In this document: piece by piece, positions 21,183 through 26,210 of the stretch
Position numbering within the stretch: position 1 is the first letter of the stretch
Layout of the letters: every line of letters starts with the position of its first letter
Source: Nitrospirota bacterium
GTDB lineage: Bacteria > Nitrospirota > Thermodesulfovibrionia > Thermodesulfovibrionales > UBA9159
Reading direction: 5' to 3'
Length of the DNA stretch: 64,000 nucleotides
Assembly: GCA_021790195.1 (NCBI GenBank)
Contig: JAJYIF010000001.1
Span: 1-64,000, forward strand
The notes under the pieces: model-generated
Database searches by the model: none
What the model was told of the DNA's origin: nothing
The model's input: the letters and a program-made list of their open reading frames with translations, nothing else
Program-made: the position numbers and the translations under genes

Positions 21183-21219
21183 AGTTGAGGTCGGATGTCA
21201 ATAGTGGACACCAAACCAT

Positions 21220-22083
21220 TCATGCGGCCAACTGGTCGGCATAGAATTTCTGTTCATAAGCGACAGGGGATAGATACCCCAGTCTTGCCTGTCGGCGCTG
21301 CCTGTTGTAGAAGACCTCGATATACTCCGTGATCTCCCGTATCGCCTCCTGCCGGGTGCTATATCGCCGATGATGGACAAGCTCCTGTTTCAGCGTTCCC
21401 CAGAAGCTCTCCATCGGGGCATTGTCATAACAGTTGCCTTTGCGACTCATTGAGGCTGTAATTCCGAATTGCTCAAGCACCTTCCTGTAAGCAGGTGCGC
21501 AGTACTGACTTCCCCGGTCCGAGTGATGTATCAGTCCCTTTGCCGGACGCTTAGCCGCCACAGCACGGAACAGCGACTGCATAACCAGCGCTTTCGTCAT
21601 CCTGGCGCCCATTGCATACCCGACAAGTTCTCCGGTGAAAAGATCTTTGTGTCCGGCGAGATACAGCCAACCCTCGTCCGTCGGAATATAGGTAATATCC
21701 GTTGTCCAGACTTCGCCCGGCGCCGTTGTCTCAAACTGCTGATTCAGCAGGTTCTCCGCCACGGGATGGCTATGCTTTGAATCAGTCGTGGCTTTGAACT
21801 TCTTCTTCTGTTTACAGCATATACCGAGTTTCTTCCTGATACGCTTGATGCGACAAACCCCGGCCTTAACGCCGTGCTCAGCCATGTCCTTCTGTAAACG
21901 CTCCGGACCACAAGATTGCCGCGTCCGCTTATGCGCAGCACGAATCTCTATCTCCAGCCGGGCTTCCTCTTGTGCCCGCTTTGACAGCGGCCTCTGTAGC
22001 CACGCATAGTATCCGCTTGCCGAAACCTCCAAAACATGACTCATGTAAGGAATAGAATATTGGAATCGCATCTCTTTCATCAT
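21220..22083 (-). CDS. IS3-family transposase OrfB (DDE integrase core)
   Basis: 287 aa. HTH_21-like N-terminus (SYIP-type segment, SASGYYAWLQRP) followed by the rve/DDE core: first Asp in VWTTDITYIPT, second in LIHHSDRGSQY, Glu in NCYDNAPMESFWGTLKQE. All catalytic residues are present. The ATG overlaps the orfA stop (ATGA). An A7 run (22125-22131) in orfA is a plausible -1 slippage site, and the -1 frame is open through to orfB, so an OrfAB fusion transposase could form as in other IS3 elements. Confidence 0.95.
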   Translation of the reverse strand: MMKEMRFQYSIPYMSHVLEVSASGYYAWLQRPLSKRAQEEARLEIEIRAAHKRTRQSCGPERLQKDMAEHGVKAGVCRIKRIRKKLGICCKQKKKFKATTDSKHSHPVAENLLNQQFETTAPGEVWTTDITYIPTDEGWLYLAGHKDLFTGELVGYAMGARMTKALVMQSLFRAVAAKRPAKGLIHHSDRGSQYCAPAYRKVLEQFGITASMSRKGNCYDNAPMESFWGTLKQELVHHRRYSTRQEAIREITEYIEVFYNRQRRQARLGYLSPVAYEQKFYADQLAA

Positions 22084-22394
22084 CGCGTACCGGGCAGCGA
22101 CTCCTTCGCAAAGTACGCGGCCGCTTTTTTTAACAGGTCTCTCTCCATTCTGGTCTCTGCCAACTCCTTCTTCAATCTTGCCAGTTCCATCTCAAGCTCT
22201 GTAAGTGGCCTATAGTTCTTGCCTATGTCCTTCAGCTTGCCGGCCTTATTGGCCTTGACCCAGTTGCCCAATGTCGATGGTGGTAACGATAACCTCCGTG
22301 CCGCCTCCGGCAACGATATGCCCCCATCTACCACCATCTTTACTGCTTCCTCTCGAAACTCCTTCGTATACCGTCCCTGCGGAATACCTTTCAT
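22080..22394 (-). CDS. IS3-family transposase OrfA (HTH_Tnp_1)
   Basis: 104 aa. N-terminal helix-turn-helix (YTKEFREEAVKMVVDGGISL, LPPSTLGNWVKANKAG) and a C-terminal leucine-zipper region (LEMELARLKKELAETRMERD). Binds the terminal repeats. Contains the A7 slippery run near its end. Confidence 0.93.
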   Translation of the reverse strand: MKGIPQGRYTKEFREEAVKMVVDGGISLPEAARRLSLPPSTLGNWVKANKAGKLKDIGKNYRPLTELEMELARLKKELAETRMERDLLKKAAAYFAKESLPGTR

Positions 22395-22417
22395 TTTGAC
22401 ACCTCCGTCCTTTTACT

Positions 22418-23560
22418 TTATCCGACTTTGGTGTCCACTTTTTCTATCCTACCCCACGGAGGTATTGCCGTTTGGCTATTGGTGGCTCTAATAATTCGAT
22501 CACGACTTTCGGCTTGGGTCGGCACAACAATTCTGACAAGAAGATTGCGATTCTCGTTTTCAGTGTTACACGTTGTGAAGTAGGTATATATTTCAGTGGA
22601 CGTCTGTAACCCGTTTACCACTTCTGGATTCTCAAGAGCAATAGTCTTTCCACTTTGGGTGGCCCTGCTGGCTAAAACGGTTATACCGTTGTTAAGCCAC
22701 CAAAAGTCCTCCGCGCTGCGCTGCTGTAAGGTTGTCTGAATTTCTTCATTAACTTGGGTCTTCCCCTGGTAATCTCGAACATTAGCTTCAAATATGTGAC
22801 GAATAAGATGCCCTTGACTATCTGTTATGAAGGCGCTGAAATCCCGGAGAGATACGAGGCAGACGAATGCGACAGCGCCGGAGGATGAAATAGGATTTTC
22901 AGAAAGCTTGAGATCATAAGATGTTGTGGGCAAACGTCTGGCCAATTCAAGAAGATCGCCTGATCCGAGAAAAGAAAAATGAAACTGTGCAGCTGAAAAA
23001 TACCTTTTAACGACGGCTTCAAGCTTAGCAACCTTGCGCTGGACATTCGGATGCACCGCGTCACCCTTAGTTGCGTAATAATAGGAGAGACGAAGCCGCG
23101 GGAACCTGGATGCCAATGTCTGATAGAGACTGCGAAATTTTTCTACAGCTTCAAGAAGAGGTTTGTTATATACTCCGTCAACTTCGCTAAGCGGTTTGGA
23201 AAGATCGAACAGTTCCTCTGTAATACTAATAAACTTCTCTATAGCTGTTTCAGTGAAACCGACACCTGTCTTAGATTGAATAATGAAGACCTCGATTGTT
23301 ATATTCTTCTTCAGTTCAGAAAAATCGCTATCCTCATGGAGCAATTCACCATTAACGAAGACATAGAATGAGTCGATGCCTCCATCACCACCACCGGCTG
23401 TTATCCCTGCTTCAAGCTCGTCATATGTCAGGTCATAATCTTTAAGGATTTGCTCGGCGGTAAAGACTTCAAAATATTTCGCTGGCTCAAGGGAGGCTGC
23501 AATAGCCTGTCGCTGCTGATCAAGAACCTGATCCAGGATTATCTTGTCATTGCTTGCCAT
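22418..23560 (-). pseudogene. AIPR (abortive infection phage resistance) protein, 3'-truncated
   Basis: 380-aa open frame. It matches the AIPR family through AGGGDGGIDSFYVFVNG near the N-terminus and EDFWWLNNGITVLA, LENPEVVNGLQTS and IRATNSQTAIPP near its end. AIPR proteins normally continue well beyond the NSQTxIP block. Here the last 12 residues (WGRIEKVDTKVG) come from junction and IS sequence, so the C-terminal part is lost. Founding members relate to lactococcal phage-resistance proteins. It sits behind DUF4928 and the Vsr-methyltransferase in one direction. Probably non-functional, though a truncated product is possible. Confidence 0.8.
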
Positions 23561-23629: not shown

Positions 23630-24577
23630 TCACAAATTCCTTGGTATCTCGATCAACATCGACTTATCGGTCTCAACCGCCTCAACACGATCATTATACT
23701 TCTCGAGGAGTCGCCTGAAGCCATTTTTCAACTTGTCACGACTGAAATACGACAGCTCTTCAATATTCTGCCCGACAAAGGACTCTATTGCTTCAACCGC
23801 AATTCGGCCCGCGACCATAAGCTCAGCATTTTGTCTGGCCCCTGTCACGGCCCTTTCCGGAACAAGTAGAAATACTCTATATCCATTTTCGAGGTTATCT
23901 TTACATTTTTCATAGACAGGCCCCATCGGCGCGACAGTGACATGAAACGCCGTGTCACCGATATAGAAATCTCCGGGTCTGCCTAACTGTTCATCGGCGG
24001 TGCTGTATGATTCGTTGCTGACCGTGATTTCAGGGAATCTCAACTGAAGTTTGGCGCCTACGACATGTTGAGCCACAGGTCCTTCCTTACCGGTCTCCCT
24101 GGCCAAGCCAAGCAGGTTCTGGATATTCTGCCATGTGCTCTTCGACGGATCATAAATCATCTTTATACGTTCACGATTATGGAACTCAACGACTTTTCCG
24201 ACAAGAAATCGTTGCATCTCGTTCAAGATTTCATCTCGTCTCTCAGCTGCAAGCTTTTCGAGATTTGCCTTCTTAAGGGCCTGAAGCATCTTTTTGATAT
24301 CGCCCGGCCCGCCCCTATTTGTTCGCCCGCCTTCTTTTGCAAAGGGCCTTGTTTCTCCGAATCTTGCAAGAATCTTCTTCACAGCTTGCCCGCTTACCCC
24401 GCTTATCTGCGCGCCGCCTTGCGCTGTGTGGGCTTCTATCTTCAGTCGATAATCTTCTCTTAATCGTTCCAATACTGCGATGGCCGCCGCTATAGTCCCT
24501 TTGGCAGGACCGCCACTCGCCTTATGAACCGGCAGATGACTGTACCAAGCCTCAAACAATTCAAGCGCTTTTTCCAC
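23630..24577 (-). CDS. DUF4928-family protein, probable restriction endonuclease
   Basis: 315 aa. N-terminal DNA-binding-like helical part (GQAVKKILARFGETRPFAKEGGR), then a region with GDFYIGDTAFHVTVAPMG and GYRVFLLVPE that resembles the strand pattern of PD-(D/E)XK nucleases, although I cannot point to a full catalytic set. DUF4928 proteins are known as neighbours of DNA cytosine methyltransferases and are presumed to be the cutting partner. Its start overlaps the end of the Vsr-methyltransferase gene by 17 bp, so production is likely coupled to the methyltransferase. Confidence 0.7.
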   Translation of the reverse strand: MEKALELFEAWYSHLPVHKASGGPAKGTIAAAIAVLERLREDYRLKIEAHTAQGGAQISGVSGQAVKKILARFGETRPFAKEGGRTNRGGPGDIKKMLQALKKANLEKLAAERRDEILNEMQRFLVGKVVEFHNRERIKMIYDPSKSTWQNIQNLLGLARETGKEGPVAQHVVGAKLQLRFPEITVSNESYSTADEQLGRPGDFYIGDTAFHVTVAPMGPVYEKCKDNLENGYRVFLLVPERAVTGARQNAELMVAGRIAVEAIESFVGQNIEELSYFSRDKLKNGFRRLLEKYNDRVEAVETDKSMLIEIPRNL

Positions 24578-26210
24578 TGTGCCTCCGGGGTTCTCTACCG
24601 ACGACGTAGGGCGTCAAGGGTCTTCCCTTCATAAGCTCGTTTACCACTGGATTCAAGTAGTATTCCGCAAGCCACTCGATTACAGGGACGCAAACAGCGT
24701 CACCGAAACCGAAAAGCGCCTGATTGAGCGGTGCCTTAATAATATAATTATCGGCGCCCATCAATCGGGCGCACTCTCTGGGATTGAGAAGCCTGGCAAA
24801 ATACTTCCCTTGGCCCGCCTTGAAGAGTATCTGTCTGCCGCTCCCTCCGCGGGGTGTCCGAAGACATCCGGCAACGCCGTCCGTCCGCAACTCGGCCATT
24901 GACTTGTCATTGCGAATACGCCTAAAAACAGTCCCGTATGAGTATCGCCTTCCACGGATCATCCGCTCGGCCGTTCCCCGATGCCGGGGGCTCATTTGAT
25001 TCAAAAGATAGTCGGCCCGTTCAGCGCTCCACCACTCGGGGGATGTCTCATCCCGATCATCGAGGATATCAGTAAGACAAAGCTTCCTCGTAGGCGGCTC
25101 AGGTAATGTTCTAATATTCCAATTTATCTCAGGGTTATGGAGAATATAATCTGCCAGGGCCGGAGGCCTGACTGGACTTTCATAAAAACTCAGTTGCTCC
25201 CGCACCTCGTTTGAGGGAATGCAGGATTCAAGAATACCGACAACGAAAAGCCGTTGCCTGCTTTGAGGCACAAACATGGCGGCATCCAAAATAAACGCGT
25301 CCGTAGAATAACCGAGTTTATTCAGGGCGAGTAACGCATGCCTGAAATCATTCCCTTTATGAGAGGAAAGAAACCCCGTCACATTTTCCAAAAGCACGAT
25401 TGGAGGTCTTCGGCTCTTCATATTCTCAAGCGCGCCGATAAATCCCCAAAAGGCTGAAGACTCCTTCCCGTGAAGACCTTTTCTTGCCCCGGCAAGCGAC
25501 AGGTCGTTGCAGGGAAATGAGGCGGTCGCCAGCGTAACAGAAGGGATAAGGTCGGCCTTTAGATGATGAATATCGCCGCATACGAGATGGTTGTCGGCGT
25601 CAGGGAAATGATCTCTGTACATCTCACATTTTTGAGCGTCTATATCATTTGCAAATAAGACCGTCCATCCCTTCCGTTCCAACCCGACGCGCATCAGCCC
25701 GATGCCCGCGAAGAACTCCGCCACTGTCCTATTAGGGACTATAGAACAAACATCCGATTTTGATTTCTTCTTTGAGGCTTCAAGGGTGATCCTGACGCAA
25801 GTCTCCAAATCCTTCCCGATCTGACTCTCCCAAAAGCGGATTACTCTCCAGCCTTCATCGAGGAGCTTCTTAGTATTACCAAAATCCCTGTTCACATTAC
25901 GTCTGATTTTGGTCACCCAATAATCCCTTTTGGGCGTTTCTGCAAACTGCTCCTCCAGAGATGCAAGCTTTCGTTTCTTCCATTGGCCGCCGTGCCAGAA
26001 GTCCCCGTCGATAAAGATAGCAATGCGCTCAGCAGGCAATACAATGTCGGGTTTTCCAGGTAGACCATCTCCTACATTATTATTGAGACGCAGGCCCCTG
26101 TCGGCAAGCGCCCTGCGCAGCGCAACTTCTGGCGATGTATCGGTGGAGCGTATTTTTCTCATGATGGAGGAGATATCCCGGTCGCCGTTCTTTGGAGATG
26201 TTTTCGACAT
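24561..26210 (-). CDS. Vsr-like endonuclease fused to DNA cytosine-5 methyltransferase
   Basis: 549 aa. Residues 1-135 are a Vsr (very-short-patch repair) domain: E28, catalytic D55 (KPDIVLP), IDGDFWHGG and WRVIRFWES. From about 160 on there is a full C5-cytosine methyltransferase: motif I AEFFAGIGLMRVGLE, motif IV SFPCNDLSLAG with nucleophile C234, motif VI LLENVTGF, motif VIII QSRQRLFVVG, and motifs IX-X LNPRECARLMG...FGFGDAVCVPV. The Vsr half lacks all four canonical zinc ligands (D70, G75, W77 and S129 align with C66, H71, C73 and C117 of E. coli Vsr). Probably modifies DNA for the downstream DUF4928 nuclease and nicks T:G mismatches left by 5mC deamination. Confidence 0.9.
   Translation of the reverse strand: MSKTSPKNGDRDISSIMRKIRSTDTSPEVALRRALADRGLRLNNNVGDGLPGKPDIVLPAERIAIFIDGDFWHGGQWKKRKLASLEEQFAETPKRDYWVTKIRRNVNRDFGNTKKLLDEGWRVIRFWESQIGKDLETCVRITLEASKKKSKSDVCSIVPNRTVAEFFAGIGLMRVGLERKGWTVLFANDIDAQKCEMYRDHFPDADNHLVCGDIHHLKADLIPSVTLATASFPCNDLSLAGARKGLHGKESSAFWGFIGALENMKSRRPPIVLLENVTGFLSSHKGNDFRHALLALNKLGYSTDAFILDAAMFVPQSRQRLFVVGILESCIPSNEVREQLSFYESPVRPPALADYILHNPEINWNIRTLPEPPTRKLCLTDILDDRDETSPEWWSAERADYLLNQMSPRHRGTAERMIRGRRYSYGTVFRRIRNDKSMAELRTDGVAGCLRTPRGGSGRQILFKAGQGKYFARLLNPRECARLMGADNYIIKAPLNQALFGFGDAVCVPVIEWLAEYYLNPVVNELMKGRPLTPYVVGREPRRHSGKSA

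Follow-up and report, generated by a model that had tools for sequence, protein, structure and literature searches.

At this locus, a single gene encodes a Vsr domain followed by a C5-cytosine methyltransferase domain in one polypeptide (Table 1). The window, that is, the whole stretch of 64,000 nucleotides that was analysed, also holds a DUF4928 gene, whose reading frame overlaps that of the fusion by 17 bp, and downstream of it an AIPR/AbiU-type gene, interrupted at about amino acid 368 (about position 22456) by an IS3-family element. The 3′ part of the AIPR gene was not found on the far side of the element and has thus been lost. On an Azospirillum plasmid (L004), an intact AIPR gene adjoins a triad of methyltransferase, DUF4928 and Vsr genes; there, an unannotated open reading frame for a zinc-type Vsr (L004, 6022–6624) lies between DUF4928 and AIPR.

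Table 1. Features of the fusion locus and the evidence for each.
Feature	Position	Strand	Evidence
Fused Vsr/C5-cytosine methyltransferase gene, 549 aa	24561..26210	(-)	Single open frame; Pfam Vsr and DNA_methylase; TIGR00632 and TIGR00675 above cut-off; 15 full-length homologues
Vsr domain, aa ~13–131	25818..26174	(-)	Aligned to E. coli Vsr; family alignment of 17 sequences
C5-methyltransferase domain, aa ~161–525	24636..25730	(-)	PF00145; PADLOC MTase_II; invariant columns in fusion alignment; Foldseek best matches are M.HhaI structures
DUF4928 protein, 315 aa, predicted type II restriction endonuclease	23630..24577	(-)	PF16280 7e-101; PADLOC REase_II 6.3e-52; synteny
5′ part of AIPR/AbiU-type gene	22456..23560	(-)	Pfam AIPR positions 1–117 of 308; PADLOC AbiU 1–351 of 537
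IS3-family element, two transposase ORFs	21186..22456	(-)	Pfam HTH_Tnp_1, rve; 30-nt terminal inverted repeats 21186–21215 / 22427–22456

Family profiles recognise both halves of the fusion. The Vsr half matches Pfam PF03852 over residues 14–79 (2.9e-20; 72.3 bits, cut-off 27) and NCBIfam TIGR00632 (vsr; 1.1e-30; 106.3 bits, cut-off 97.85), and E. coli Vsr (1cw0) aligns to residues 14–131 when the PDB is searched with phmmer (5.3e-13, in a range of E-values from about 1e-11 to 1e-13). The methyltransferase half exceeds the cut-off of NCBIfam TIGR00675 (dcm) and matches Pfam DNA_methylase (PF00145; residues 163–516, 166.9 bits, 1e-48) and PADLOC MTase_II (PDLC03243, 3.5e-120). Among solved structures, the methyltransferase is nearest in sequence to M.HhaI and the N-terminal domain to 1cw0. 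The catalytic set of the methyltransferase is complete, with motifs I (FAGIG), IV (FPCN), VI (LLENV), VIII (QSRQR) and X (GFGDAV) all found, and F167, G169-I170-G171, P233-C234, E275-N276-V277, R318xR320 and G503-D504 are invariant across 16 fusions. With both profiles matched in one minus-strand frame, the initial annotation was right to read the gene as a Vsr fold joined to a complete cytosine methyltransferase. Nor is the frame an assembly or sequencing artefact, since the same continuous fusion is present in 15 independent genomes.

In an AlphaFold model of the fusion (mean pLDDT 74.6), helices and strands of the Vsr part succeed one another as expected, while residues 72–91, the loop expected to carry the zinc site, are unreliable (pLDDT < 50). 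Among the Foldseek matches listed for the whole fusion there are methyltransferases only and no Vsr structure; assignment of the Vsr fold therefore relies on sequence homology and predicted secondary-structure order rather than on a superposition.

Using the K-12 Vsr protein of E. coli (L058) as residue reference, the active-site residues E25, D51, W68 and H69 correspond to E28, D55, W72 and H73 of the window protein, and C66, H71, C73 and C117, the zinc ligands in the E. coli Vsr structure, correspond to D70, G75, W77 and S129. This ligand set agrees with the C/H/C/C found at the four columns in 45 other Vsr proteins. Both sets of positions had been called correctly from the sequence; the account of the active site had, however, overlooked a further change, namely that E. 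coli H64 is replaced by D68 in the window protein and in every other fusion (16/16). Aspartate at this position also occurs in some zinc-bearing Vsr proteins. Substitute Cys or His zinc ligands, which would have spoken against a zinc-free domain, are absent from the window Vsr domain: residues 1–150 contain one histidine (the catalytic H73) and one cysteine (C138), leaving no room for an alternative Cys/His site. Across the family, too, candidates for alternative ligands were rejected, with only H73 and C138 (15/17) conserved and C45 and C110 missing from the window protein. The lack of a zinc site argues against a canonical zinc Vsr, not against a Vsr as predicted here, the family profile requiring no zinc. 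Moreover, M17, F71, W72, W98, K101 and N105 occupy the positions of E. coli M14, F67, W68, W86, K89 and N93, the residues that contact the T:G mismatch in the 1CW0 structure. The first five are invariant in 17 Vsr domains, and N93 has its equivalent in 16 of the 17.

How widespread is this arrangement? When one genome from each bacterial and archaeal species was scanned for homologues, 17 loci were obtained; 15 of them hold full-length fusions (54–87% identical), giving 16 together with the window. They are spread over about eight phyla (Nitrospirota, Poribacteria, Acidobacteriota, Thermodesulfobacteriota, Armatimonadota, Chloroflexota, Bacillota and metagenome-assembled genomes (MAGs) labelled Deltaproteobacteria). 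All 16 retain E28, D55, D68, W72 and H73, share the motif DGDFWHGGQW...S and carry D/G/W/S at the old zinc positions, as does a standalone relative (L057). When the window gene is compared with its two nearest relatives, dN/dS is 0.068–0.088 for the Vsr half (dS about 1), 0.052–0.060 for the methyltransferase half and 0.19–0.53 for the C-terminal tail. The fusions form a single clade in both the Vsr tree (100/99) and the methyltransferase tree (100/97), and remain one clade relative to the zinc-free unfused rows (83/96) in a Vsr tree built without the zinc and H64 columns. These patterns support the earlier proposal that the zinc site was lost as a coordinated and, as the substitution rates suggest, selected state. 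The gene is not a damaged one, and the enzyme type that it encodes is real and probably undescribed.

One correction applies: loss of zinc is not peculiar to the fusion. A family-profile scan of viral contigs uncovered standalone Vsr proteins with a DGDFWH core and without CHCC (L091–L107); the same contigs yielded no close relative when scanned with P0001 alone, and the relatives emerged with the family alignment as query. Often, the genes for these zinc-free standalone proteins in phage contigs abut C5-methyltransferase genes (e.g. L091, L092 and L103). Conversely, two loci from the same phylum as the window encode a C5-methyltransferase followed by a Vsr domain in one chain of 537 aa with CHCC intact (L060, 4840–6450; L061, 1013–2623). 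They are independent fusions, and their Vsr domains fall into a clade other than that of the N-terminal fusions. Since zinc-free Vsr proteins exist unfused and fusions of opposite order keep their zinc ligands, fusion and zinc loss are separate events. The zinc-free proteins cluster together in the full Vsr tree, and after removal of the trait columns their grouping costs one or two changes, so that a single origin seems likely. The nearest unfused relative is the above-mentioned L057, from the Nitrospirae MAG HyVt-426. In seven other Vsr proteins (L067, L068, L072, L074, L075, L077 and L078), a third ligand set, C-C-x-H, occupies the Cys66, Cys71 and His117 positions, which suggests that the zinc site is exchanged as a whole; all seven have Asp at the H64 position. 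As a side observation, on the Rhizobium plasmid pRL11 (L007, 4971–6671) a family methyltransferase is preceded, in the same frame, by a zinc-type Vsr, with a stop codon between them; this is possibly a further N-terminal fusion, either broken or nascent.

The DUF4928 gene lies directly downstream of the fusion in 10 of the 16 loci, the window included, and is missing from the locus in the other six. Its assignment as a restriction endonuclease rests on PADLOC and synteny, given that its AlphaFold model (pTM 0.45) and a fold search, which returned no PDB match below E 0.1, were uninformative. Two of the ten copies are broken, one by deletion of its middle (L041) and one by an in-frame TAG (L043), and the fusion is intact in both. 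Among the six genomes lacking DUF4928 at the fusion locus, only one (G409, locus L054) has it elsewhere, where it adjoins a second family methyltransferase, cut by the contig end. The Vsr half hence tracks the methyltransferase and not the restriction endonuclease, as seen from these six loci and the two with a broken DUF4928 gene. Four solitary fusions (L051, L053, L054 and L055) have a common gene order, with a PrmA-like methyltransferase gene adjoining (confirmed by Pfam for L051 and L054) and an apparent isocitrate dehydrogenase gene also alongside, a neighbourhood that suggests a fixed housekeeping locus. As to the target site, we compared palindrome depletion in 429 kb of the window's own genome, 243 kb of a second genome with the fused system (G362) and stretches of two relatives that yielded no fusion; no palindrome showed a depletion restricted to the genomes with the system.

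What, then, is the function of this protein? Methylation of cytosine at C5 promotes mutation, a problem that bacteria are known to counter with Vsr. We consider it probable, judging from the retained residues and the gene order, that the fusion is a single-chain, zinc-independent enzyme that methylates its own site and initiates very-short-patch repair where its own methylcytosine has deaminated. Its C-terminal half would serve a DUF4928-type restriction-modification system as modification methyltransferase. Where this enzyme has marked its site, deamination of 5-methylcytosine would produce a T:G mismatch; the N-terminal, zinc-independent Vsr half would recognise the mismatch and nick the T strand, and very-short-patch repair would then restore C:G. 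Mutagenic methylation and the repair that limits mutation would thereby reside in one molecule at a 1:1 dose. Repair is the favoured reading because the nuclease and mismatch-contact positions are kept and the Vsr half is under purifying selection near the level of the methyltransferase. Against it speak the replacement of H64 by Asp in all fusions, the low confidence of the modelled loop at residues 72–91 and the failure of the depletion analysis to single out a target. Mismatch nicking, metal content, a common target site and active restriction are features that we infer. A direct coupling of methylation to repair is plausible, favoured as it is by synteny and residue conservation. More tentatively, and with the odds somewhat against it, the tethered Vsr might borrow the target recognition of the methyltransferase for T:G repair, such that repair specificity would follow methylation, and the fusion might be retained by itself in a housekeeping role once the restriction endonuclease is lost.

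Alternatively, the Vsr half could be a restriction or nicking nuclease that acts at the recognition site of the fused methyltransferase on DNA that is unmodified (or foreign), much as in single-chain restriction-modification enzymes, with DUF4928 as an accessory. Vsr and many restriction endonucleases have a PD-(D/E)XK-like fold in common (PMC4081073), the active site with D68 differs from that of E. coli, and the layout itself resembles such enzymes. We nevertheless regard this as unlikely: the mismatch-contact residues of Vsr are kept, a predicted restriction endonuclease already adjoins in 10 of the 16 loci, and in unfused relatives an ordinary zinc Vsr accompanies the same methyltransferase and DUF4928 families, which implies that the Vsr in this position serves repair. 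Slightly less likely still is a catalytically dead Vsr half that serves the methyltransferase as a DNA-binding or structural module. Replacement of four zinc ligands and one active-site histidine would fit such a module, but a purely structural role needs no invariant nuclease centre, and here E28, D55 and H73 do not vary even between deeply diverged members, the Vsr half is under purifying selection that almost matches that on the methyltransferase, and zinc-free standalone Vsr proteins carry the identical centre. Finally, accidental read-through or decay, in which neighbouring vsr and dcm frames fused and the zinc site drifted, might be suspected from the truncation of the adjacent AIPR gene by an IS element, a sign that parts of the locus are decaying, yet it is refuted by the monophyly of the fusion in both trees, its conservation in about eight phyla, a D/G/W/S quartet without exceptions and a dN/dS well under 1.

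If the repair reading is correct, the occurrence of the fusion across about eight phyla, in some cases without a linked restriction endonuclease, would mean that selection can bind a mutagen and its repair in one molecule. The fusion also points towards a putative class of zinc-independent Vsr nucleases common to phages and fusions. That vsr genes lie beside methyltransferase genes, and that restriction-modification systems may include V genes, is on record (PMC3091744, PMC10855626, PMC6116569, PMC12907096). We found neither a natural Vsr–methyltransferase fusion nor a zinc-free Vsr in the open literature, an absence that is no proof of novelty.

The classical counterpart is Dcm and Vsr of E. 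coli, likewise a C5-cytosine methyltransferase with a dedicated Vsr, in which the E25/D51/W68/H69 set and the mismatch contacts are common to the fusion. There, however, as had been stated initially, the two proteins are encoded by separate, overlapping genes, dcm followed by vsr at the K-12 locus, which is the reverse of the order in the N-terminal fusion; E. coli Vsr binds zinc (CHCC) and has H64, and the system comes without a linked restriction endonuclease. Closer in gene content are the methyltransferase–DUF4928–Vsr triads of plasmids and phages (Serratia, Pseudomonas and, with AIPR, Azospirillum), whose methyltransferases belong to the same family (38–40% identical) and which include the DUF4928 family and a Vsr. 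In these, the Vsr has a downstream gene of its own and belongs to the zinc CHCC class: on plasmids and in a Burkholderia phage, the gene after the family methyltransferase encodes DUF4928 or a similarly sized protein, and the next one a zinc-class Vsr, and a separate zinc-type Vsr follows the methyltransferase at six loci (L004, L005, L006, L008, L010 and L081). Two classes of Vsr therefore fill the same slot. The standalone DGDFWH proteins of phage contigs and L057 resemble the fusion in having lost the zinc site and in bearing Asp at the H64 position, and L057 even has its DGWS; they differ in being unfused and, for the most part, in showing DWFH, DYFH or DRHS at the old zinc positions. The C-terminal fusions L060 and L061 also join Vsr and C5-methyltransferase in one chain, but in reverse domain order, with intact CHCC and from another Vsr clade. 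In Caulobacter, the C5-methyltransferase ScmA is functionally paired with the Vsr-like nuclease VsrA, although the genes are unlinked and VsrA is an unfused, DUF559-type protein (PMC12907096). Loss of the methyltransferase while VsrA is kept leads to VsrA-dependent DNA damage in that organism (PMC12907096), a hazard that fusion of the two activities in one chain would remove.
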